The notes beneath the pieces were generated by a model. That model was given only the letters and a program-made list of their open reading frames with translations, had not been told where the DNA came from and made no database searches. Below are positions 12,495-59,094 of a DNA stretch of 64,000 nt, in pieces. Every line of letters starts with the position of its first letter. Position 1 is the first letter of the stretch. Both the position numbers and the translations under genes were made by a program. The stretch is taken from the NCBI GenBank assembly GCA_027622715.1, contig JAQBYN010000001.1, forward strand, positions 152,076 through 216,075, given 5' to 3'. This DNA is from Pseudomonadota bacterium. GTDB taxonomy: Bacteria > Pseudomonadota > Alphaproteobacteria > SHVP01.

Positions 12495-13334
12495 CTAATC
12501 CGCGTCGAGAAATTCCCGCAAAATCGGCGCGACCGCCTGGAAACGGACCAACAGCATCTCGCGCCCCCACTCCGGCAAGTCCACCATCCGGCCATTGCGA
12601 ATAAAGGGCCGCGCACGCGCCGTCGGCGCCCACAAGTCGTCCTGCGCGTGCAAGATCAACACCGGTTGGCTGACGCGTGGCAGGGCGTCACGATGTTGGT
12701 AGCCGAACGCCGCATGATGCCCGTGCCACACGTGGGCGCCCGCCCGCAGCGACTCGGCAACCTCTAGCAAAACTGCGTCCAACGGTGTGTCGGCACCGCG
12801 CTGGTGCATGGCCCACGCCCAACGCGCCAAGATGTGCTCGCCGTCCCCGCCAAAGCGCTCGACCGCCACGTCCTGCTGCTGCAACGCGTCAAGTTCGGCG
12901 GCCGCGTAAACCGGCGCGGCATTTAGAACGACGCGGCGCACCCGCTCGGGGTTTTGCAACGCACATTCGACGGCAATCTTGGCGCCGGTATGATCACCAA
13001 AAACATCGACCTGGGGCAACGAAAGCGCGTCGATCAGGTCGCCCATTGCGCCCGCATAATCGGCAATCGACGGTGCATGCGATGGCGGGTCGGACGCACC
13101 GAACCCCGGGGTGTCGACGGCGATTGCAACGCGGTCGCGGCCCATTTCACCGATTAGGCCTTCGTAACAGCGCCCAGATGTCGGCGTCTGGTGAAACACC
13201 AGCAGCGGCGGAAACCGCGGCGCGCTCGGCGCCGCGATCCGGTAGTGCAGTTGGCCAAAGCGGCACGGCGCATAGGCGCGTCGCAGCCCGGGTGGGACGG
13301 CCCACACGTCGATGCTGTTTTTGCTCGCCGCCAT
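12495..13334 (-). CDS. Single-domain alpha/beta-hydrolase-fold protein with His at the nucleophile elbow
   Basis: This 279-residue protein has the alpha/beta-hydrolase order: an oxyanion-loop motif FHQTPTSGR (47-55), DTPGFGASD (74-82), the strand-5 elbow FGDHTGAKIA (112-121) and a late DDLW acid segment. At the elbow G-x-Nuc-x-G reads G113-D-H115-T-G117, so His replaces the usual Ser, Asp or Cys. The usual catalytic His near the C-terminus also appears to be missing (WGREM). It may therefore bind, or catalyse something other than ester hydrolysis. It lies 7 bp after the larger fusion gene and is probably co-transcribed with it. Family alignment is by eye. Confidence 0.8.
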   Translation of the reverse strand: MAASKNSIDVWAVPPGLRRAYAPCRFGQLHYRIAAPSAPRFPPLLVFHQTPTSGRCYEGLIGEMGRDRVAIAVDTPGFGASDPPSHAPSIADYAGAMGDLIDALSLPQVDVFGDHTGAKIAVECALQNPERVRRVVLNAAPVYAAAELDALQQQDVAVERFGGDGEHILARWAWAMHQRGADTPLDAVLLEVAESLRAGAHVWHGHHAAFGYQHRDALPRVSQPVLILHAQDDLWAPTARARPFIRNGRMVDLPEWGREMLLVRFQAVAPILREFLDAD

Positions 13335-13341
13335 GGATGGC

Positions 13342-15048
13342 CTAGGCGTCGTAAAAGCTGCGCAAGTATCCGGCTATTTCGTCGGCCTGTGTCTCCATGA
13401 AGCCATAACTGTATTGCAGCAAGTCGATGAGCTGCGCGTTCTTCAGCAGCGGCTTGGCCCGCAACGTGTTCTCTTCCAACCCATCCTTGGGCCGGAAAAC
13501 CAGCATGGGCTGGTCTATCTTGGGCAGGACCGGGTCCATGTCGTAGGAAAACACGGCGTGGTGGCCCCAATGGCCGAACGGTCCGCCCCTCAGGGTCTCG
13601 ACGAAATTGCGCTCCACATCGCGCATACCCATGGCGGGACCGTAGATCCGAACCATCGACTCCCAACGCTTTTTCAAATGGGCCGCGTCGGCCGTCGGCG
13701 CTTCGTACACCGAATGCGCAACCTTTTCCGCCCGTTCATCGGCATTGAAATACGGCACCGTATTCAACGCGACTTTTCTGATCAACGCCGGATAGCGCGC
13801 CGCCAAATCGATCGCAATCACGGCCCCGGTGTGGTCACCCATAAGGTCGATCGGACCGGCACCGGCAACCGCTTTGGTCACGTCGGTCATGATATCGGCA
13901 AGGTCGGCAATTGTAGGCAATTTCTGCGGCGCTTCGGATTCGCCAAACCCCGGAATGTCTGCAGCGAAGGCCAAACGATCTTTGCCGAGGCGCACCAACA
14001 ACGGCTCGAAGTTGCGGCTCGAAACCGGGCTCATGTGCAAACAAAGCACGGGGACCTTTGTCGTCCGACCGGGGTCGACGACACGCACATGAACCTGCTT
14101 CGCGCGGCTGTCGATAAACCGTCGCCGCACCGGCTTCGCGACAAGTGCTGGTGCGGCGGGCGCTTGGCGCGGCGCGGCACGGGGTTGCGTGTCGTCCGCC
14201 GGACCGTCGAGAAAGTCGCGGAGGATCTTCGCCAGCTCGGTCGAATGCTGCGAAATCGCGCCCATCCCAAACTGCCGCAATTCCAAAATGGTGCCGTTCT
14301 TGAGATAGGGCTTGCTCGCCATTGTCGCGTCCCACAGCCCGTCGTCGGGGCACAGAACGAGAATCGGCTGACTGACATGCGGCAGATTGTCCGAATGTTT
14401 GACAGCAAACGCGGCGTTGTGGCCGTACCAAGCGAGATCCAACCCCCGCAAGCTTTCGCAAAAATCGCGGTTATACAGTTCCATCGGCGCGTCGGGCTTG
14501 TACGACCCTTTGGTACCTTTCCACCGATGAAGAATGTGGCTGCCGTCTTGTGGCACGATGTCCTTGGGCCGCTCGGCTTCAAGATGGGTCATCATCTCGG
14601 CCATCTTTTCGGGCGAGTAGACCGGGCAAGCGTTGAATACCAGGCGGCGTACCAATTGCGGTCGCTGCAACGCGAGCTCTACGCCGACTTTTGCACCGGT
14701 GTGGTCGCCAAAAACGTCCACCTCGTCGAGCTTCAGCGCATCCATAAAACTGGCCACCGCAGCGGCATAATCGGCAATCGTCGGCGGCGCGGGCGGTGCA
14801 TCGGAATCGCCAAAGCCCGGCGTGTCGACGGCGATCGCGATACGATCGCGCCCCATCTCGGAGACCAGCCCCTCAAAAGGTCGGCCTGAAGACGGGCTCT
14901 GATGAAAAAAGATAATCGGCGGGTGTGCCGCAGCGGCGCCATCCGTTGGCACCGCGATGCGATAATGCATCTGGCCATAGCGACCGTCGACATAGGCGCG
15001 TTTGACGTTGTCAGGTTTGCGCCAGTAAAGCGCGGCGTCTCCGATCAT
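13342..15048 (-). CDS. Double-domain alpha/beta-hydrolase-fold fusion with His elbows (copy 1)
   Basis: This 568-residue protein is two complete alpha/beta-hydrolase domains in tandem (about 1-282 and 308-568) joined by a Pro/Ala linker. Each repeat has FH[QM]SPxS[SG]R, D[TI]PGFG[DE]S and an elbow G-D-H-T-G, with His116 and His406 in place of the nucleophile. The late acid segments are PDDGLWD and PKDGLEE. At the usual triad-His position I see Met in domain 1 and Tyr in domain 2. Domain 1 has another conserved His nearby, in SQH (268). The start is supported by GGGAGGGAG upstream. It is probably the first gene of a unit with 12495-13334. A cytoplasmic location is likely, as there is no signal peptide. 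Confidence 0.82.
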   Translation of the reverse strand: MIGDAALYWRKPDNVKRAYVDGRYGQMHYRIAVPTDGAAAAHPPIIFFHQSPSSGRPFEGLVSEMGRDRIAIAVDTPGFGDSDAPPAPPTIADYAAAVASFMDALKLDEVDVFGDHTGAKVGVELALQRPQLVRRLVFNACPVYSPEKMAEMMTHLEAERPKDIVPQDGSHILHRWKGTKGSYKPDAPMELYNRDFCESLRGLDLAWYGHNAAFAVKHSDNLPHVSQPILVLCPDDGLWDATMASKPYLKNGTILELRQFGMGAISQHSTELAKILRDFLDGPADDTQPRAAPRQAPAAPALVAKPVRRRFIDSRAKQVHVRVVDPGRTTKVPVLCLHMSPVSSRNFEPLLVRLGKDRLAFAADIPGFGESEAPQKLPTIADLADIMTDVTKAVAGAGPIDLMGDHTGAVIAIDLAARYPALIRKVALNTVPYFNADERAEKVAHSVYEAPTADAAHLKKRWESMVRIYGPAMGMRDVERNFVETLRGGPFGHWGHHAVFSYDMDPVLPKIDQPMLVFRPKDGLEENTLRAKPLLKNAQLIDLLQYSYGFMETQADEIAGYLRSFYDA

Positions 15049-15223
15049 CCGACTCCCTCCCCTGTATTGTTGGCCCCGCTTGGGGCTCAGGGAGAATAGG
15101 CGGCGGAAACCGCGGGGGCGAGTCCTCTCGGACGCACTGCCCGGGGCGGCACTATCGCAAGATTACCGGGAGTCTAACGCGCCCGGTCCCGCGACGGAAA
15201 TCACGTTCTCTGTCCCCAAACGT

Positions 15224-16960
15224 CTAGCTGCGCAAAAACCCATCAATATCGCGGGCGACCTCAGCGACCCGGTCTTCCAGCATCGAATTGCCAAGTCCGG
15301 CATATTCCTTGTAGCGGCCATTGCGCAACAGAGCCGCGCCCCGCCGGCTCGGTTCAATCAAACTGTCCTCATCCGAACACATCAACAGTATCTCTCGTTC
15401 GATATGCGGCAGAACCTCGCCCAGTAGATACATGTTGGCGGCACGTGGCCCCCACCACATGCACGGCCCGGCACGAATCGTCTCGAAGAACCGAAACGCA
15501 ATTTGATCCGATGTCAGCTTGCCGCGGTTCAAATTTTGGTAGCGTTCCCACAGCGCGGCGTAATGGCTGCCATCTTCCTGAACGTCAATCGTACCCATCT
15601 TGCTTTGCCAGCTCTGCTGTTCCTCGGCCGAGTAAACGCCGGCGGTGTTCATAACGATCCGGCGCACCAGATCGGGCCGCTGATGGGCCAGTTCGATCGC
15701 AACCTTGGTGCCGGTGTGATCGCCCAACAAGTCGACGGTCTCGAATGTCATCCCGTCGATCATTGAGGCCATCGCCCGCGCATAACCCGGCACGTCCAGG
15801 CGTTGCGCCGGTTTGTAAGATTCCCCATAGCCGGGCGTGTCTGGTGCAAACACCTGGCGGTCGGCTGATAAGGCGGCCAGCAGCGCCTCGAAGTAGTGGC
15901 CCGAGCGCGGGCTCATGTGAAAACAAAACAGCGGCGGCGCCGTAGCGCCCAATCTGCCGGCCGCCCGCAAATGAATTTGGCCGGCCGACGAATTGGCGAA
16001 CAGACGGTTGATGCCGAGCCCGTCGTCGGTCCCCGAGACAACAACCGGCGGCGCAGCCATTGCCGGCTCATCGTCGAAAAATTTGCGCAGCATCGCGGTG
16101 AGCGTCTCGGCGTGCTGCGATATTGCGCCAACCCGCCAGTCGGCCCGATGAACCAGCTCCCCGTCCGGGACTAGTTTCGCCGCCCGGTGTGTTTCTTCCC
16201 ACAGTCCGTCATTTGCCGAGACCATCAGTATCGGTTGTTTGACCTGTGGCAGCGCGTCGGCAAACGAATAGCCATAAGCCGCCTGATAACCCCACCAGGC
16301 TTTGTCGCGCGTGCGCAAGGATTCGGCGAAGTCTCGGTCGACTAAAGCGAGCGGCGCATCGCCCGCATAGTGCGTCCTTAGGCTGTGCCATTTCTTCGCG
16401 AGAAATGCCCCATCCTCGGGCAGCGGCACGCCAGCCTCGCGAATTTTTTCCGCTAACAAATCGCGCTGGGCGTTGCGCTGATCCGCGCTGTACACCGGGG
16501 CGCCGTATAGAACCAGTTTGCGCACCAGCTGTGGCTGCTGGCGGGCGATCTCAACCGCAATTTTCGCCCCGGTATGGTCACCAACAATATCCACCCGGCC
16601 GATTCCAAGTCCGGCGATTACCGTCGCAATCGCCTCGGCATACTCAGCGATACCCACCGGTTCGTCGGGCCTGTCTGAGTCGCCGAAACCTGGTGTGTCC
16701 GGTGCAATCGCCACGCGAGTCTGGCCAAGGCGCGCGAGAACGCCCTCCCATGCCCGGCCTGACGACGGCGTTTGGTGGAGTAGAACAACTGCTGGGCGCT
16801 CCGGCACCTCGGGCTGCGCATAGCGAAAATGGAAATGCCCGAACGGCCCCGCGACATAGGCCCGGCGCACGCCTTTGGGTGCACGCCAATAGCCAAGCAA
16901 CGCCTCAAGCGTGGCTGCGTCGTCGGGCCAACCGGTTTTCTCAGAGGATCCGACGTTCAT
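15224..16960 (-). CDS. Double-domain alpha/beta-hydrolase-fold fusion with His elbows (copy 2)
   Basis: The ATG at 16960 has GGGGAG six bases upstream; an earlier in-frame ATG contains that site, so the shorter 578-residue form is preferred. Two domains (about 1-298 and 318-578) each carry the family marks LHQTPSSGR / FHMSPRSGH, DTPG[FY]G[DE]S and G-D-H-T-G, with elbow residues His129 and His415. The late acid motifs are ANDGLWE and SDEDSLI. The second domain ends GNSMLEDRVAE and has lost the SQH histidine seen in domain 1 (His283). It is divergent from psuK across 99 bp and 175 bp upstream of the first fusion gene. Confidence 0.82.
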   Translation of the reverse strand: MNVGSSEKTGWPDDAATLEALLGYWRAPKGVRRAYVAGPFGHFHFRYAQPEVPERPAVVLLHQTPSSGRAWEGVLARLGQTRVAIAPDTPGFGDSDRPDEPVGIAEYAEAIATVIAGLGIGRVDIVGDHTGAKIAVEIARQQPQLVRKLVLYGAPVYSADQRNAQRDLLAEKIREAGVPLPEDGAFLAKKWHSLRTHYAGDAPLALVDRDFAESLRTRDKAWWGYQAAYGYSFADALPQVKQPILMVSANDGLWEETHRAAKLVPDGELVHRADWRVGAISQHAETLTAMLRKFFDDEPAMAAPPVVVSGTDDGLGINRLFANSSAGQIHLRAAGRLGATAPPLFCFHMSPRSGHYFEALLAALSADRQVFAPDTPGYGESYKPAQRLDVPGYARAMASMIDGMTFETVDLLGDHTGTKVAIELAHQRPDLVRRIVMNTAGVYSAEEQQSWQSKMGTIDVQEDGSHYAALWERYQNLNRGKLTSDQIAFRFFETIRAGPCMWWGPRAANMYLLGEVLPHIEREILLMCSDEDSLIEPSRRGAALLRNGRYKEYAGLGNSMLEDRVAEVARDIDGFLRS

Positions 16961-17059
16961 CTGGTTCTCCCCGGGCGTCACCCCAACAGACGACGGGCTT
17001 GCCTCACGCGCGCCCCTACTCTAGTCACGAACAACGCAAACCAACAGTTCGGATCCGCC

Positions 17060-52118: not shown

Positions 52119-53276
52119 TCAGGGCGCCGGGGTGTACAAGACGACCGGCCCCTCGATCCCCTTCATGCCGTACTTGCCCGCTTCCTTGAACTTCAAGGAT
52201 TTGCCGGTGCACAACTCGCGCACGATATTAGTGACCAAGACTCCGTCAGTTTCGGCAGCGTCACAAACGCGCGCGGCCATCTGCACGGTTGACCCGAATA
52301 GGTCGTTGTCCTCGACGATCGGCTGGCCCGCATTGATCCCGATCCGCATATGAAGCGGCAACGCCGGGAACTCCTTATTGTGAATAATGACGCCCTTGAG
52401 CATCTTGACGGAGGCCTCAACCGACTGATCAGCATGGCCGAAACGCGCCATGATTCCGTCGCCGGTATGTTTTACTTCCGTGCCACCGTGATCTTTTAGC
52501 GCGACCCGCACGATCGCATTGTGCGCGCGCACTATTTTCTGCGCACCCTCATCGCCAAGTTCTTGAGTGATCTTGGTTGATCCAACGATATCGGTGAACA
52601 GCACCGTGATCGGCCCGTCGTTCTTTGCGATGTCACTTTCTTTCGGATTGCGCCACTTCTTAATTGTCTTTGCCATGGCGGCGACCGACTTCTCGTCGCC
52701 TTTGGCGTACTTACGCAGCGCCTTCGAGCCGTCCTGAAAGGTCCCGATATACTGTGGCTCTAGAAGGTATTCCTCGTATTTGTCGGCAAGCTTTTGCGCT
52801 GCGTCCGGCTTATTGCCGATCAGTGCCAGAGCTTTTTGAAGTAGATCAACGAACTGTTGATCGTTGAGCTTGTTCTCGTCCTTGATGACTTCCGCGGCGC
52901 CGGCGAGGAACAGGTTCGCGCCAAACTTATCAGCACCCGATATCTGGATCTTTTCCTTGATAAGGACAGCGATTGAACCTTCGAGGAATTTCATCAGTGT
53001 TTGGGTGGCGCCGTCCCCATCGCCCTCGGGTTGGGCCTCCTCTTCTTCGCCGTCCCCGTCGCCCTCGTCGGCCTCGTCAGCGGCCTCGGCGATCGCTTGT
53101 TTCACGGCCGCTGGCGAGTTGCCGACTTCTCGGGTCGCAACGGGCGCGGTCGGCATGCCCGCCATGCGCCGCAAGACCTGAAAATCGTCACTGTTGAAGA
53201 AGATCATGCCCAGCAGGGCGCCGCAGACGATGAAGGCACCGACAAAAACGATGAAACTTTGTGGGTCGAGAAACAT
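52119..53276 (-). CDS. Membrane-anchored class III cyclase with acidic linker
   Basis: This 385-residue protein has one N-terminal transmembrane helix (about 7-28), then an acidic linker (EAADEADEGDGDGEEEEAQP). A helical stretch and a C-terminal cyclase domain from about residue 220 follow. The metal Asp residues are in VLFTDIVGSTKITQ and VKHTGDGIMARFG. The expected Asn/Arg pair reads FGSTVQMAARV, with Gln for Asn, a variant common in one bacterial subfamily. It is 42 bp downstream of a gene for an acidic membrane protein and probably co-transcribed with it. Product cAMP or cGMP is not known. Confidence 0.85.
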   Translation of the reverse strand: MFLDPQSFIVFVGAFIVCGALLGMIFFNSDDFQVLRRMAGMPTAPVATREVGNSPAAVKQAIAEAADEADEGDGDGEEEEAQPEGDGDGATQTLMKFLEGSIAVLIKEKIQISGADKFGANLFLAGAAEVIKDENKLNDQQFVDLLQKALALIGNKPDAAQKLADKYEEYLLEPQYIGTFQDGSKALRKYAKGDEKSVAAMAKTIKKWRNPKESDIAKNDGPITVLFTDIVGSTKITQELGDEGAQKIVRAHNAIVRVALKDHGGTEVKHTGDGIMARFGHADQSVEASVKMLKGVIIHNKEFPALPLHMRIGINAGQPIVEDNDLFGSTVQMAARVCDAAETDGVLVTNIVRELCTGKSLKFKEAGKYGMKGIEGPVVLYTPAP

Positions 53277-53318: not shown

Positions 53319-53876
53319 TCAGAAACCGCCGCGCTGGACCATCCAGGTAACGATCGCCGCAAATGCCAAGCTCGCCCCTACGATAACGAGAATCTTAGTC
53401 AAAACAACAGCTTCCGGCCCGGAAACGACGTTTTGAACCGTCCGCGCAGCGCCGCGGGCACCGCCTCCGGTTGATTGGCGGTCGTCGTCATCGTCGCCGG
53501 CCTCGAAGTCGCCCCAGCTCCGCTCCTCAACGTCGACCTCAAAATCGTCCCAGCCGCCGTCACCGTCGCCGCCACCGCCGCCATAATCGTCGTCGTCGTC
53601 GCCGTCATCGAACCCGCCGTAGTCGTCATCGTCGCCGGGATCTTTGCGGCCGGTCTTCTGGCCCTTTTTGATTTCGCTGGAGTAGATCGTCGATTCGCGG
53701 TTCACCCCGGTGCCCGGGTTGCGTTGTTCGCGCACCACTTTGACGGCCTGGATATGACCTTGCTTCGCCATTTGTTTGGCGTCGTCGACAGCTTCTTCCC
53801 GCTGATGGGACTGGAAATGGGCTTCCAGTATCCAGCGGTCGTTCTGTTTGACGTAAAGCTCGTAGTTGATTTCCAT
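53319..53876 (-). CDS. Unknown acidic protein with C-terminal TM anchor, linked to the cyclase
   Basis: I do not recognise this 185-residue protein as a named family. The N-terminal 65 residues (MEINYELYVKQNDRWILEAH) form a compact, probably folded domain. The centre is a very acidic Gly/Asp repeat (DDDDYGGFDDGDDDDDYGGG). A transmembrane helix (about 158-180) ends the protein. It is upstream of the cyclase gene on the same strand, and both have acidic low-complexity linkers with one membrane anchor at opposite ends. They may work together. Function is not known. Confidence 0.65.
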   Translation of the reverse strand: MEINYELYVKQNDRWILEAHFQSHQREEAVDDAKQMAKQGHIQAVKVVREQRNPGTGVNRESTIYSSEIKKGQKTGRKDPGDDDDYGGFDDGDDDDDYGGGGGDGDGGWDDFEVDVEERSWGDFEAGDDDDDRQSTGGGARGAARTVQNVVSGPEAVVLTKILVIVGASLAFAAIVTWMVQRGGF

Positions 53877-53955: not shown

Positions 53956-55650
53956 TCATGAATCCAAAAATTGCCGAAGAATTTGACCAATTTCCGCAGT
54001 ATGCGCATCCAGCATCCCATGTGAATAGGGCAGATCGCGGATTTGACCGTTGGCCAAGAGGGGCCTTGCGCGCGGCGTCTGTTCGGCGAGATCGTCGTCG
54101 GGGTTTAGAAGAAGGATCGGTTGGCGCACCGTGGGCAGGTTTTCAGCCATGGCGTAGTTGAAGGCCGCGCGATGGCCCCACCAGCCCACCGGACCGCCGC
54201 GCAACGACTCACAAAAGTTGCGCGCCACGACGGTATCTTCAACCTCGGTGCCATAAAATTGCCATAGCCCGGCAAAGCGCTGGATCAGGTGCGAGCCGTC
54301 CTCGGCGACGGCCAGCGGCTTGTTGCGGGCGTGGCGAAGCGCGCGCTCCTCGGCGGTATAGAGCGGGGCTGAAACCATGACGACCTTGCCCACAAGGTCC
54401 GGCCGTTGGCGCGCCAATTCCATCGCCGTTTGGGAACCGGTGTGGTAGCCCATGACGTCCACCCGGGGCAGGCCAAGCCGGTCGATCAGCCCGCCCATGC
54501 ACGCAGCGTAGTCTTCAATGGATGGCGGTTGTTGCGGCGCATCGGACTCACCAAACCCCGGCGTGTCAGGCGCGATAGCCAGCCGGTCACGGCCCATTTC
54601 CGCGACCAGCGCTTCGTAAATCCGGCCCGAATTGGGGCTCATGTGAAACATGACAAAGGGTGTTCGCGGCGAATCGGCTGACCCAGCTTGGCGGAGATGA
54701 ATTAGGCCATACGGTCCGTCGTGAAACGCTCGGCGGATCGGTCCGGCCTTCAGCGCTGGTGGCACCGGCACTGGTTTCGCCGCCTCGCCTCCTGGGAGAG
54801 TCGTCGCGTCGCTGTCAAAAAACGCCCGCAGATGACGCACGAACACGTCGCTATGAACGTCGATCGACCCGTGGGAAAAGGCCGGCAGATCGACCACGCG
54901 GCCATTGGCGAGATGCGCGGCCGCACGCGCGGTCGGCGCGGTCAGGTCGTCGCCGAAATTAAACAAGAGCACCGGCTGGCGCACCTTCGGCAGGTTTTCA
55001 GCGTGAAGATAGTTGAACGCTGCGCGATGTCCCCAGGGCGCCTGCTCGCCGCCTTTGAGCGACTCGGCAAGGCTGCGATGCGCCACGATCAAGGGAACGT
55101 CGGGTTTGCGAAACGTCTTTGAAAAATTCCACCGCCAAGCAAGATGAGAACCGTCGCGTTCGATCTTCTCCGCCGCATAGTCGTGCTTTTGCTTGGCCAA
55201 TTCCTCTTCGGAATAGATCGGCGCGGAAACCAACGCCAGCTTGCGGACCAACCCAGGGCGCTGCAGCGCAAGCTCAACGCAGGTCTTGGATCCGGTGTGA
55301 TACCCCACGACATCAACCTGCGTGATCCCGAGCGCGTCGAGGAACGCGCCCATCGTCGCCGCATAGTCGGGTATTTCCGGTGGCGCCGGGGGCGCGTCGG
55401 AATCGCCGAACCCCGGCGTATCGGGTGCCAGCGCCAAGCGATCGGCTCCGAGCGCGGCAAGCGCCGCTTCCCACATGCGCCCCGACGACGGGCTCGCATG
55501 AATAAAAAGAACCGGCACCCGGGGGCTCGCACTCGGTCCCGCGGACCGGTAGTGCAGTTGGCCGTAACGGCCATCGATATAGGCGCGGGCAACGTTGGCC
55601 GGGCGGCGCCAAAACGTCATGTCGTCTGCGGCGTCCTGGGTCGTGCTCAT
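53956..55650 (-). CDS. Double-domain alpha/beta-hydrolase-fold fusion with His elbows (copy 3)
   Basis: This 564-residue protein is two alpha/beta-hydrolase domains (about 1-282 and 305-564). Each has [FI]H[AM]SPxSGR, DTPGFG[DE]SDAP and an elbow G-Y-H-T-G, giving His118 and His403 at the nucleophile position. The late acid motifs are FGDDLTAPT and PDDDLAEQT. Both domains keep a His at the usual triad position (FSHG and YSHG), unlike the copies at 12-17 kb, so this copy may be the least degenerate. Its ATG overlaps the stop of the upstream hydroxylase-like gene by 4 bases (ATGA), which puts it in an operon with two flavin-dependent enzymes. Confidence 0.85.
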   Translation of the reverse strand: MSTTQDAADDMTFWRRPANVARAYIDGRYGQLHYRSAGPSASPRVPVLFIHASPSSGRMWEAALAALGADRLALAPDTPGFGDSDAPPAPPEIPDYAATMGAFLDALGITQVDVVGYHTGSKTCVELALQRPGLVRKLALVSAPIYSEEELAKQKHDYAAEKIERDGSHLAWRWNFSKTFRKPDVPLIVAHRSLAESLKGGEQAPWGHRAAFNYLHAENLPKVRQPVLLFNFGDDLTAPTARAAAHLANGRVVDLPAFSHGSIDVHSDVFVRHLRAFFDSDATTLPGGEAAKPVPVPPALKAGPIRRAFHDGPYGLIHLRQAGSADSPRTPFVMFHMSPNSGRIYEALVAEMGRDRLAIAPDTPGFGESDAPQQPPSIEDYAACMGGLIDRLGLPRVDVMGYHTGSQTAMELARQRPDLVGKVVMVSAPLYTAEERALRHARNKPLAVAEDGSHLIQRFAGLWQFYGTEVEDTVVARNFCESLRGGPVGWWGHRAAFNYAMAENLPTVRQPILLLNPDDDLAEQTPRARPLLANGQIRDLPYSHGMLDAHTAEIGQILRQFLDS

Positions 55651-56858
55651 GAAGGCTTCTTGGTTCCGTGAAATCCAGCGGCGTCCGTGCCCAGCCCCAG
55701 CTCGCTTTTCCCGAACGGCGTCACGTTACGGTCCCAGTTGACGGCAATCTGGGTGCCCATCGCCGTTAGGTCGCGGTAATGCCGCTGAACCGGGTTGTCG
55801 TCATAAAGTCCCATCGCCCCCATTTGCCGAACAAGCCGCGTCACCGCGGCAATCAAAAGCTTGGCGACAAAAGCGCGATCGCGGTTCATTTCGAGGAGCT
55901 CCGTCGCGCTCATGCTCACGCCGGCCGCACCGCGCTCGTGCAAGATCCGGTTGTTGCTCTCATACATCAAGCGTGCCGCTTTGATCTCAGCAGCCGACTC
56001 GGCAAGACGCTGTTGCACCTGGACCAATTCGGCGATCTTGCCGCCGAATAGCGCCCCCTCACGCACCGCCGTGATGTCGCGGTAATCGGCGTAGGCACCC
56101 TCCGCCGCACCCAGCATCGGTCCCAGCAAACTCGCGCCGAAATACGGACCGAACTCCATCCGGTAGAGGTAGTGCTCAGGATTGACCGCGGCCCCCGGCG
56201 GATTGGGCGCAAAGGTCGCGCGCGAATCCATCGCCCGGTATTCCGGCACGAAAACTTCATCGCAATGCACGTCTTTGCTGCCACTGGCTTTGACACCCGA
56301 GACGAACCACGTGTCCTGTATCACGTAATCGTCTTTGGGCATCAACACCCGCAGGAACCCCGGCGCATCGTGCAGGCCGCGCTCATTGGCTTCCAGCGGC
56401 GCGGGCACCATGCACCAGTCGGCATGGTCGACGCCGGAGGCAAAGCGCCAAGTCCCCGTGACGACGTAGCCGCCATCAACCTTGCGCGCGGTCCCGTCCT
56501 TGCGCGCCGACGCCGTCGCAATGATCTGATCTTGATTGGGGCCCCAAACGTCGTCCTGACACTGTTTGGGCATGCGCGCGAGGATCGCGGCATGGGCGCC
56601 AACGACAGAGACCACCCACGCCGTCGACGAACACGCGCGGGCGAGGACCCGGGCAGCCTCGGCATGGACCGCCCAGTCCATTTCGTAACCGCCATATCGT
56701 TTGGGTTGCAAGATGCGCATCATCCCGGTGGCAAACAGGTCCTGAACTGTTGCATCAGGCAGTCGGCGAAGCTTTTCAGCTTCGGGCGCCCGCTCGCGTA
56801 GCGCCGGCAACAAGCCCTCGGCGCGTTGCAATATCTCGTCGAGAGTGGGTTGCGCCAT
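55647..56858 (-). CDS. Flavin-dependent hydroxylase of the acyl-CoA-dehydrogenase fold (copy A)
   Basis: The ATG at 56858 (GGAGAG, then AGGAG, upstream) gives 403 residues. The fold is acyl-CoA-dehydrogenase-like. The pattern STAWVVSVVGAHA, GTWRFASGVDHADWCMVPAP and DDNPVQRHYRDLTAMGTQIA is that of two-component flavin-dependent hydroxylases (HsaA/HpaB-like group). These use reduced flavin from a separate reductase to hydroxylate aromatic or other substrates. It is 35 bp downstream of a paralogue and coupled to the tandem hydrolase. No reductase is seen in the window. Confidence 0.85.
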   Translation of the reverse strand: MAQPTLDEILQRAEGLLPALRERAPEAEKLRRLPDATVQDLFATGMMRILQPKRYGGYEMDWAVHAEAARVLARACSSTAWVVSVVGAHAAILARMPKQCQDDVWGPNQDQIIATASARKDGTARKVDGGYVVTGTWRFASGVDHADWCMVPAPLEANERGLHDAPGFLRVLMPKDDYVIQDTWFVSGVKASGSKDVHCDEVFVPEYRAMDSRATFAPNPPGAAVNPEHYLYRMEFGPYFGASLLGPMLGAAEGAYADYRDITAVREGALFGGKIAELVQVQQRLAESAAEIKAARLMYESNNRILHERGAAGVSMSATELLEMNRDRAFVAKLLIAAVTRLVRQMGAMGLYDDNPVQRHYRDLTAMGTQIAVNWDRNVTPFGKSELGLGTDAAGFHGTKKPS

Positions 56859-56893
56859 AGTCTCCTGCTCTCCAATCACTGTCGTGACGTTCT

Positions 56894-58114
56894 TCACGAT
56901 ACCGCGCGACCGAGTTCCTGGTCGATGTGGGCATCGCCGGTCGCCAAGCCCAACGCCCATTTTCCGTAGGGCAGCATGTTGCGGTCCCAATTGATGCCAA
57001 TCTGCGTCGCCATCCCCATGACATCCCGGTGGTGACGTTGAACCGGGTTATCATCGAAAATGCCCATCGCACCCATCATACCGACCAAGCGCTCGGTCGA
57101 CTGAACGCACAGCTTGGCGATAAAGGCCCGATCGCGATTAATCTCCAAGCGCTTGGTCGCGGGGATAGCTGTCCCGCTGTGCCCCGCCTCGCGGAGATAG
57201 GCGATTTGATCCACCATAATCACCTCTGCGGCATGCAGTTCCGCGGCACTCTCGGCGACCCGCAGCTGCACCGGGGCGTTGTCGGCCACCGCCTCGCCGG
57301 TCATCGTGCCGGTTCGTTGCGCAGTAATCGCGCAGTAGTCGATGTATGCACCTTCGGCAGCGCCGAACATCGGGCCCAGAAGACTCATGCCGACATACGG
57401 CATGAACGGCACTTTGTAGATGTAGCTCGGGTTAACCTTGCTTCCCGGCGGATCGGCGGCAACCCACTCGCCGGCTGGCAACGTCCGGTGTGCCGGCACA
57501 AAGACGTCCTCCAGAACTAAATCCTTGGTGCCGGTACCGCGCATGCCCGAGACATACCAAGTATCTGCGATGTGCCAGTCGGTGCGCGGCACCACAATCT
57601 GGGTCGGCACTTTTTCGTCATCGACATGGACGCCGAACATCGCCCACTCGGCGTGGTCGCAGCCCGACGAAAATCCCCATTGCCCGGTGACCCGTAATCC
57701 GTCTTTATCCCGCGTGGCGCTGCCGTGGCGCTTCGCCGATGCGGTTGTGATGAGCTGGTCTTGATTGGGCCCCCAGACCTCGTCTTGAACCGCGCCCGGC
57801 ATACGCCCCAAGAAACAAGCGTGAGCGCCCACCACGGCAACGATCCATGCGGTCGACGGGCAATACTTTGCAACTTCGCGCCCGATGGCGAACTGGGCGC
57901 CCCATTCAAGTTCGAATCCGCCGTGGCGTCGCGGCTGAAAAAAGCGCACCAGCCCATTGTCAAAAAGCGCCTGCATGTTGTCTTTGAGAACGGCACGGTT
58001 GGCCTCGGTCTCGCTCGCCGTCGACCGCAACTGCGGTCCAAGCGCCCGCGCGCGCGCCACCAACACCGCCTCCATCTCCAAGGGGTCCAGCGCCTCAACG
58101 TCCCGAATGGCCAT
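56894..58114 (-). CDS. Flavin-dependent hydroxylase of the acyl-CoA-dehydrogenase fold (copy B)
   Basis: This 406-residue protein is a paralogue of the next gene: STAWIVAVVGAHACFLGRMP, GQWGFSSGCDHAEWAMFGV and DDNPVQRHHRDVMGMATQIG align directly. It probably shares the reduced-flavin hydroxylase chemistry. Copies A and B may have different substrates or form one complex. It is the first gene of the run B-A-tandem hydrolase. The dehalogenase-like gene lies 80 bp upstream on the same strand. Confidence 0.85.
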   Translation of the reverse strand: MAIRDVEALDPLEMEAVLVARARALGPQLRSTASETEANRAVLKDNMQALFDNGLVRFFQPRRHGGFELEWGAQFAIGREVAKYCPSTAWIVAVVGAHACFLGRMPGAVQDEVWGPNQDQLITTASAKRHGSATRDKDGLRVTGQWGFSSGCDHAEWAMFGVHVDDEKVPTQIVVPRTDWHIADTWYVSGMRGTGTKDLVLEDVFVPAHRTLPAGEWVAADPPGSKVNPSYIYKVPFMPYVGMSLLGPMFGAAEGAYIDYCAITAQRTGTMTGEAVADNAPVQLRVAESAAELHAAEVIMVDQIAYLREAGHSGTAIPATKRLEINRDRAFIAKLCVQSTERLVGMMGAMGIFDDNPVQRHHRDVMGMATQIGINWDRNMLPYGKWALGLATGDAHIDQELGRAVS

Positions 58115-58194: not shown

Positions 58195-59094
58195 CTAAGG
58201 GTTCGTCAGGTGGTCAGACGAGCCGAAGATTTCTGCCGCAAATTCCGCAATCGCTGCCGCCATTTCTTGCGGGCTGTCTTCTTGCACAAAATGGTAGCCA
58301 TCAAGCATGACCTCGCGTTGGTTGGGCCAGGCGCGACATTGTGCACGTTGGCGTTCGGTCAAACCGGTGGCGCCACTTACCAGCAGCAACAGTTTCGGCA
58401 GATCGGACGTCGCCATGAAGGCGGCATCGGCGGTCGTCACGGCGACCACATCCGCTGGCTCGCCGCTGATCGGTAGTTGGCGCGGGAACGAAAGCGTCGG
58501 CAGCCGACCGGGCCCAGTCGCCGCGAACGGCGCGCGGTACCGCGCCATCTCCTCGGCCGTCAAGGCGCGCTGAACACTCCGAGGAATGGCCTCGACAAAT
58601 ATATTCTCCTCAAAAACCATGCGATCCCCTTCCGGACCGCGCAGCGATTCGAAGAAAGATCGGCGGCTGTCGGGGAAATCAGACCAATCACGCTCGCCCA
58701 CGACCGGCTCGCAATAGGCCAACCCACGCAGCATCGCGGCATGCGTCCGCGCCCGATGAAAGACAAGCGTTGCACCCCAGCCGTGCCCGACGACGAGATG
58801 AAGCGTCGGCGCCACCTGATCGAACCATGCGTCTAGGTAATCAATATGATCGGAAAAATGGTAGCGACACCCCGTTGGCTTTCCAGAGTCGCCCATCCCA
58901 ATCAGATCGGGCGCAAGACAACGATAGTCGGGTCGCAGCGCTGCAATGACGTTGCGCCACAAATAGGATGACGTCGGATTCCCATGCAGAAATACAATTG
59001 GGGGTCCGGCCCCCTCGTCGACGAACGCCATGTGTGAATCGTGAATCTCAAGTCGGTGCCGCTCGAACCGGTCCTGAGCGTCAATCACTGTCAC
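58195..59094 (-). CDS. Haloalkane-dehalogenase-like alpha/beta hydrolase with nucleophile replaced by Gly
   Basis: This 299-residue protein starts at GTG with a possible alternative GTG two codons later. It has HLD-like marks: VFLHGNPTSSYLWRN, APDLIGMGDSGKP, LAYCEPVVGERDW and the catalytic His in DGYHFVQEDSP. In haloalkane dehalogenases the elbow is H-D-W-G, with Asp as nucleophile. Here the codons read VVGHGWGATL, so Gly is in that place. Classical dehalogenase activity is therefore doubtful. It is 31 bp downstream of the CoA-transferase gene on the same strand. Confidence 0.82.
   Translation of the reverse strand: MTVIDAQDRFERHRLEIHDSHMAFVDEGAGPPIVFLHGNPTSSYLWRNVIAALRPDYRCLAPDLIGMGDSGKPTGCRYHFSDHIDYLDAWFDQVAPTLHLVVGHGWGATLVFHRARTHAAMLRGLAYCEPVVGERDWSDFPDSRRSFFESLRGPEGDRMVFEENIFVEAIPRSVQRALTAEEMARYRAPFAATGPGRLPTLSFPRQLPISGEPADVVAVTTADAAFMATSDLPKLLLLVSGATGLTERQRAQCRAWPNQREVMLDGYHFVQEDSPQEMAAAIAEFAAEIFGSSDHLTNP

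Follow-up and report, generated by a model that had tools for sequence, protein, structure and literature searches.

What can an alpha/beta-hydrolase fold do when the residue at its nucleophile elbow is a histidine? This question is raised by the window analysed here, a 64,000-nucleotide stretch of alphaproteobacterial DNA (lineage SHVP01; assembly GCA_027622715.1, contig JAQBYN010000001.1, positions 152,076 to 216,075), in which four proteins, A, B, C and D, contain seven domains of this fold. All seven read G[DY]HTG at the elbow: GDHTG in the five domains of A, B and C, and GYHTG in the two of D (Table 1). On the best reading of these sequences, the His-elbow family may consist of enzymes encoded in catabolic clusters. 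Acid-base catalysis may be provided by the elbow His next to the oxyanion hole, the substrate being transformed without an acyl-enzyme, a proposal given a probability of roughly 0.45.

The fold itself is ordinary, while the active site is unusual. All four proteins exceed the cut-off of 25.8 bits for PF00561 (Abhydrolase_1), scoring 44.4 (A), 67.9 (B), 81.9 (C) and 98.2 bits (D). Each of the seven domains has the oxyanion motif H[QMA][ST]PxS[SG][RH], the motif D[TI]PG[FY]GxS and an acid Asp after strand 7. Structure models cover A and D (mean predicted local distance difference test, pLDDT, of 94.6 and 94.8, respectively) and show the canonical sheet, in which the elbow joins strand 5 to the following helix: strand 109-114, His115 and helix 116-127 in A, and strand 112-117, His118 and helix 119-130 in D. 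In these predicted structures it is the His that occupies the nucleophile elbow, and not a Ser, Cys or Asp. A profile of the seven domains aligned to PDB sequences likewise places the His in the nucleophile column, opposite the Ser of GHSTG in chloroperoxidase L (1a88) and the Asp of GHDVG in 8hgu. The Ser, Asp or Cys nucleophile of a catalytic alpha/beta hydrolase is replaced by His in all seven domains. As a control within the same genome, the elbows of 20 other Abhydrolase_1 genes, out of 73 PF00561 matches, were read from the translations by pattern and by eye, and comprise 16 Ser, two Cys, one Asp, one Ala and no His.

To survey homologues, the matches of A and D were pooled with fetched loci, only exact duplicates being removed. 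The elbow is His in all 349 domains scoring at least 250 bits, and the acid Asp is found in 348 and the C-terminal His in 287 of them. Homologues of D number 265 proteins passing E 1e-5 among 7994 scored candidates, and the 239 domains with an aligned elbow in the best 120 of these carry His in 98% and Asp in 2%. The list for A is complete, with 77 proteins; of the 75 in which the elbow is aligned, 65 have His, three Gln, three Arg, one Thr, one Ala and two Ser, and the two Ser-elbow proteins are the weakest matches of the list (E 3.8e-7 and 3.4e-6). The position is not absolutely fixed, as Asp, Asn, Trp, Gly or Gln occurs in some second domains. When the four proteins are compared with their counterparts in congeners, the ratio of non-synonymous to synonymous substitution rates (dN/dS) is about 0.06-0.10, rough values given that dS is near saturation (1.2-2.2), and points to purifying selection on all four. 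Recent copying is not the origin of the seven domains, since their pairwise identity is 31-51%. The preliminary description had reported the shared elbow, oxyanion and DxPG[FY]Gx[S] motifs, and had taken the His for a property of the family rather than the decay of one gene. This observation was right, and is stronger than stated: the motifs recur in 7/7 domains, the close homologues found with the profile are invariant, most elbows in the list for A agree, and the substitution rates point the same way.

Further insight into which residues may work together is given by the tandem proteins. In 173 two-domain proteins both elbows could be aligned. His is present in 172 of their first and 147 of their second domains, and in the 22 most distant of these proteins in 21 first but only two second domains, the other second domains having Asn, Trp, Gly, Gln, Ser or Thr. 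The oxyanion positions follow: Ser53 and Thr119 are kept in 2/16 and 3/16 of the distant second domains, compared to 22/23 each in the first domains. Residues that disappear jointly from a dispensable half, but are jointly retained in the other, probably function together. The split of 21 versus two is an argument that the first domain contains a working site, and this domain may represent the main catalytic unit of each tandem. In some Rhodospirillaceae two adjacent single-domain genes stand in place of the fusion (e.g. L093, L088 and L092), an arrangement that fits the expectation for halves working together. Two side observations concern such tandems. The second-domain elbow is Asp (GIDAG) at a locus (L030) on a contig titled as a Bordetella parapertussis metagenome-assembled genome, a title that is probably mislabelled. 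Distant two-domain members with a single GxHTG (L102, L057, L100), found in the window's genome and two Actinomycetota, are flanked by two-module genes of the glyoxalase superfamily.

The family comprises two types of active site. In A, B and C the C-terminal catalytic His is missing and an Asp precedes the elbow His, whereas D keeps the C-terminal His. Counted over domains above 150 bits in which both positions are aligned, the C-terminal His is retained in none of 51 GDHTG domains but in 288 of the 305 others. Its substitutes in the 51 are Met (21), Tyr (19), Asn (4), Val (2), Ala (2), Phe (1), Leu (1) and Arg (1). The match list of A repeats the pattern (0/16 GDHTG versus 35/49 others). In a tree of 93 domains, from which both columns were left out, the Asp was gained about three times and the loss of the His took 12 changes, and the His is absent from all 16 rows with Asp. 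GDHTG sequences from first domains and those from second domains belong to separate clades, and the two halves therefore did not inherit one and the same swap. It is likely that, as these patterns suggest, the swap represents an exchange of partners for the elbow His. The earlier inference of a chemistry different from that of acyl-enzyme hydrolases is upheld in spirit, with the refinement that the family is heterogeneous, D being set apart from A, B and C.

In the proposed mechanism the elbow His would both donate and accept protons next to the oxyanion hole, and no acyl-enzyme intermediate would be formed. In D, a chain of elbow His, C-terminal His260 and Asp234 would move protons on a substrate that may be the product of the adjacent HsaA-like flavin monooxygenase (FMO). 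The outcome could be cleavage of a C-C bond, elimination or isomerisation of this oxygenated substrate. In the GDHTG proteins, the Asp preceding the elbow His would take over the role of the lost partner. A wider and tentative claim is that a new catalytic subclass is represented here. Its elbow His (as His-His-Asp or Asp-His) would replace Ser, Asp or Cys and subject the products of monooxygenases to C-C cleavage, elimination or oxygenation, and the subclass may have expanded into a large family of tandem-domain proteins within one lineage of aquatic Alphaproteobacteria. Several points weigh against acid-base catalysis by the elbow His. The scoring profile itself contains His and one of the three contig-scan patterns contained HTG, which somewhat favours His. 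An independent-pairs sign test of the Asp/C-terminal-His swap is not significant, and with two to three pairs cannot reach significance. The C-terminal His is also lost without the Asp in 17 of the 305 domains, five second domains with Asp and one with Tyr at the elbow occur in otherwise close relatives, and A, B and C have no FMO neighbour in the window (judged by eye), the FMO link relating to D-type genes.

Four alternatives were weighed against this proposal. The domains could be pseudoenzymes that bind small molecules or partner proteins, the elbow His recognising a ligand as in receptor-like members of the fold. This would suit an elbow devoid of Ser, Asp and Cys, the additional absence of the C-terminal His from A, B and C, and the abundance of paralogs within a single genome (that of the window has 47 matching stretches at E 1e-3). 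It is nevertheless considered unlikely in view of the retention of the acid Asp and, largely, the C-terminal His in close domains, the coupled swaps of active-site residues and the gene order with oxygenases at D-type loci. Covalent catalysis, in which the imidazole of the elbow His attacks the substrate to give an acyl- or alkyl-His intermediate, is improbable. Although the His sits at the nucleophile's place and the next Thr and the oxyanion-loop motif are kept, an imidazole would not require a second catalytic His nearby to act as its base, and such a His is nevertheless kept in most GYHTG-like domains. Moreover, among the representatives of 40 families of the fold inventoried in Table 1 of PMC7034887, none has a His nucleophile. 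A catalytic metal with three His ligands, at the elbow, at the C-terminal catalytic position and in the lid (DGxH, His169), is slightly more improbable again. The lid His is indeed kept at 76-100% in most conservation groups, together with the elbow His and also, where the domains are GYHTG-like, with the C-terminal one. These groups were picked by elbow residue, so that 100% His at the elbow holds there by construction; the tandem-domain figures above were recounted without that choice. However, every GDHTG domain has lost one of the ligands, and, in the same groups, His169 persists in distant second domains without the elbow His. That these are ordinary hydrolases with a misread elbow or a nucleophile migrated to the conserved Ser56 of the PxS motif is very improbable, as two confident models and the profile alignment place His at the elbow, and as this serine is also present in ordinary relatives such as 1a88 (PLS) and is therefore not a new nucleophile.

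Table 1. Positions in the window of the His-elbow proteins, their elbow codons and genes near D.
Feature	Position	Strand	Description
Protein A	12495..13334	minus	279 residues, single alpha/beta-hydrolase domain, GDHTG type; Arg (WGRE) at catalytic-His position
Elbow His codon, A (His115)	12990..12992	minus	
Protein B	13342..15048	minus	568 residues, two GDHTG domains, with Met (first) and Tyr (second) in place of the catalytic His
Elbow His codon, B domain 1 (His116)	14701..14703	minus	
Elbow His codon, B domain 2 (His406)	13831..13833	minus	
Protein C	15224..16981	minus	585 residues from GTG (alternative start ATG at 16960), two GDHTG domains, with Val (first) and Asn (second) in place of the catalytic His
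Elbow His codon, C domain 1 (His136)	16574..16576	minus	
Elbow His codon, C domain 2 (His422)	15716..15718	minus	
Cyclase-like gene (by eye), after D	52119-53276 and 53319-53876	minus	
Protein D	53956..55650	minus	564 residues, two domains, both GYHTG; catalytic His260 and His544 kept; acid Asp234 and Asp519
Elbow His codon, D domain 1 (His118)	55297..55299	minus	
Elbow His codon, D domain 2 (His403)	54442..54444	minus	
HsaA-like FMO	55647..56990	minus	NF045629, 305 bits, below cut-off of 450; 4-bp overlap with start of D
Second HsaA-like FMO, same cluster	56894..58114	minus	NF045629, 276 bits, below cut-off

The group of A, B and C is separated from D by 38 kb. The open reading frame of C also opens at the GTG at 16981, position 16960, at which it had previously been ended, being an internal ATG. 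Upstream of D and on the same strand, an orthologue of the FMO is present in the window and in 6/6 fetched relatives, which represent six of the nine other genomes in the taxonomic family. The two genes overlap in the window, where the FMO stop codon contains the first base of D, overlap or are less than 120 bp apart in G299, G300, G302 and G301 (the FMO gene of G300 running off the contig), and lie about 0.9 kb apart in G304 and G305, with a gene on the opposite strand intervening in G305. At six further loci a more divergent FMO homologue (37-41% identity) is located 167-231 bp from a family gene. A gene-by-gene listing finds FMO and family gene together at 15 of 94 loci, with L022-L025 repeating four relatives (L127-L130); it supersedes an earlier count by record prefix, in which the FMO cluster occurred in nine prefixes, seven with a same-strand family gene. 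This gene order suggests that the HsaA-like FMO is the likely partner of D. The D cluster in the window also holds a CoA-transferase and an amidohydrolase-like gene, the latter recognised by eye. Other recurrent neighbours within 4 kb, counted by record prefix, are an FAD_binding_2 flavoprotein (11), a 229-residue protein (10), a methyltransferase (6) and a VOC protein (5). Equally frequent neighbours (13, 12, 11 and 10 prefixes) resemble housekeeping genes common to close relatives, and these counts therefore prove little. The 229-residue protein (L073:8803-9489) has no Pfam or NCBIfam match, and is on the same strand as the family gene in nine of its ten prefixes; a sequence-based search of the PDB gave no match for a VOC neighbour. 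Orthologues of the cyclase-like gene occur near D in five fetched relatives (L125, L126, L127, L129, L130). A separate observation relates to the minus-strand gene at 58195-59094, which matches the haloalkane dehalogenase family NF002938 with 336 bits, above the cut-off of 241. Its elbow (58774-58788) reads GHGWG, with Gly at the position of the Asp nucleophile, as does that of its orthologue in a congener (L125, 69% identity), and automatic annotation would name both proteins active dehalogenases.

The His-elbow family is rare in the phylum: at E 1e-25 a match was obtained in four of 299 sampled genomes, the window's own among them, with up to eight candidates scored per genome. In the taxonomic family of the window, all ten genomes have between one and 18 close matches, compared to 0/21 other genomes of the class (E 1e-40). 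The genome of the window yields, in the stretches fetched, 55 domain matches with 29 His, six Ser, four Ala, three Asn, two each of Gln, Trp, Gly and Arg, one each of Lys, Met, Glu and Asp, and one unaligned. In a genome scan, from which 80 of 487 matching stretches were taken, the record titles include Alpha- and Gammaproteobacteria, Actinomycetota (Nonomuraea, Nocardioides, Dactylosporangium), one Chloroflexi genome and two Candidatus Marinimicrobia loci. Members in named isolates (Sphingomonas glacialis, Glacieibacterium frigidum and Nocardioides gansuensis) make the His-elbow question testable in culture. In several genomes a nucleophile-less single-domain type with an Ala elbow (HPNRTNxRVW ... 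VGAATGGNI; L101:14520-15356, also L026, L031, L033, L034 and L042) is encoded near genes of the family. An Abhydrolase_1 protein outside the family (L141, G000:C40:32200-33400) also has an Ala elbow, SHAIGG. PMC6946804 describes paralog expansions in other families of catabolic enzymes from aquatic bacteria, which makes a role of the His-elbow family in the breakdown of uncommon carbon compounds plausible by analogy.

Annotation and probing of this very large fold both rely on the elbow nucleophile as its hallmark. As the His-elbow family is conserved, hundreds of proteins probably bear a wrong automatic name, such as alpha/beta hydrolase or pimeloyl-ACP methyl ester carboxylesterase. In this family it can also be tested cleanly how the fold acquires chemistry that does not proceed by an acyl-enzyme, and the pairing with an FMO gene gives a concrete route to the substrate.

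Open-access literature on elbow substitutions and related chemistry yielded no description of a His-elbow family, which is weak evidence of absence, and A-D reach no NCBIfam cut-off among the families listed. The chloroperoxidase L/aryl esterase group (1a88, 1zoi) shares 18-22% identity with the window proteins, but has a Ser nucleophile in GHSTG where these have His. Compared to the 3-oxoadipate enol-lactonase PcaD (2xua, TIGR02427), they score at most 112.4 bits against a cut-off of 255.85 and lack the elbow Ser. Many PDB profile matches over the N-terminal half of the His-elbow domains are to haloalkane dehalogenases, in which the nucleophile is Asp, while A-D have His and reach no more than 92.4 bits for NF002938 (cut-off 241) and 73.3 for NF002873 (cut-off 466). 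For the NDR family (PF03096), A falls just short with 22.2 bits against 23.3, and B, C and D are not among the listed matches. Steroid catabolism by HsaA and HsaD resembles the arrangement around D, as in both cases an HsaA-like monooxygenase gene adjoins one for an alpha/beta-hydrolase fold. HsaD, a Ser C-C hydrolase, is among the NCBIfam matches of the window proteins, although the scores to HsaA and HsaD are below the cut-offs. A precedent in chemistry is given by the cofactor-free dioxygenases HOD and AqdC, which have the same fold and, in the account of PMC10548524, can dispense with the elbow residue as a nucleophile, needing only the His-Asp pair of the fold, which acts as base. Their elbow is Ser or Ala and not His, and the likeness is one of description rather than of sequence comparison. 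By this analogy, the precedent backs a non-nucleophilic elbow in general and not a His in particular; among A-D, both the His and the Asp of such a base are present in D only.
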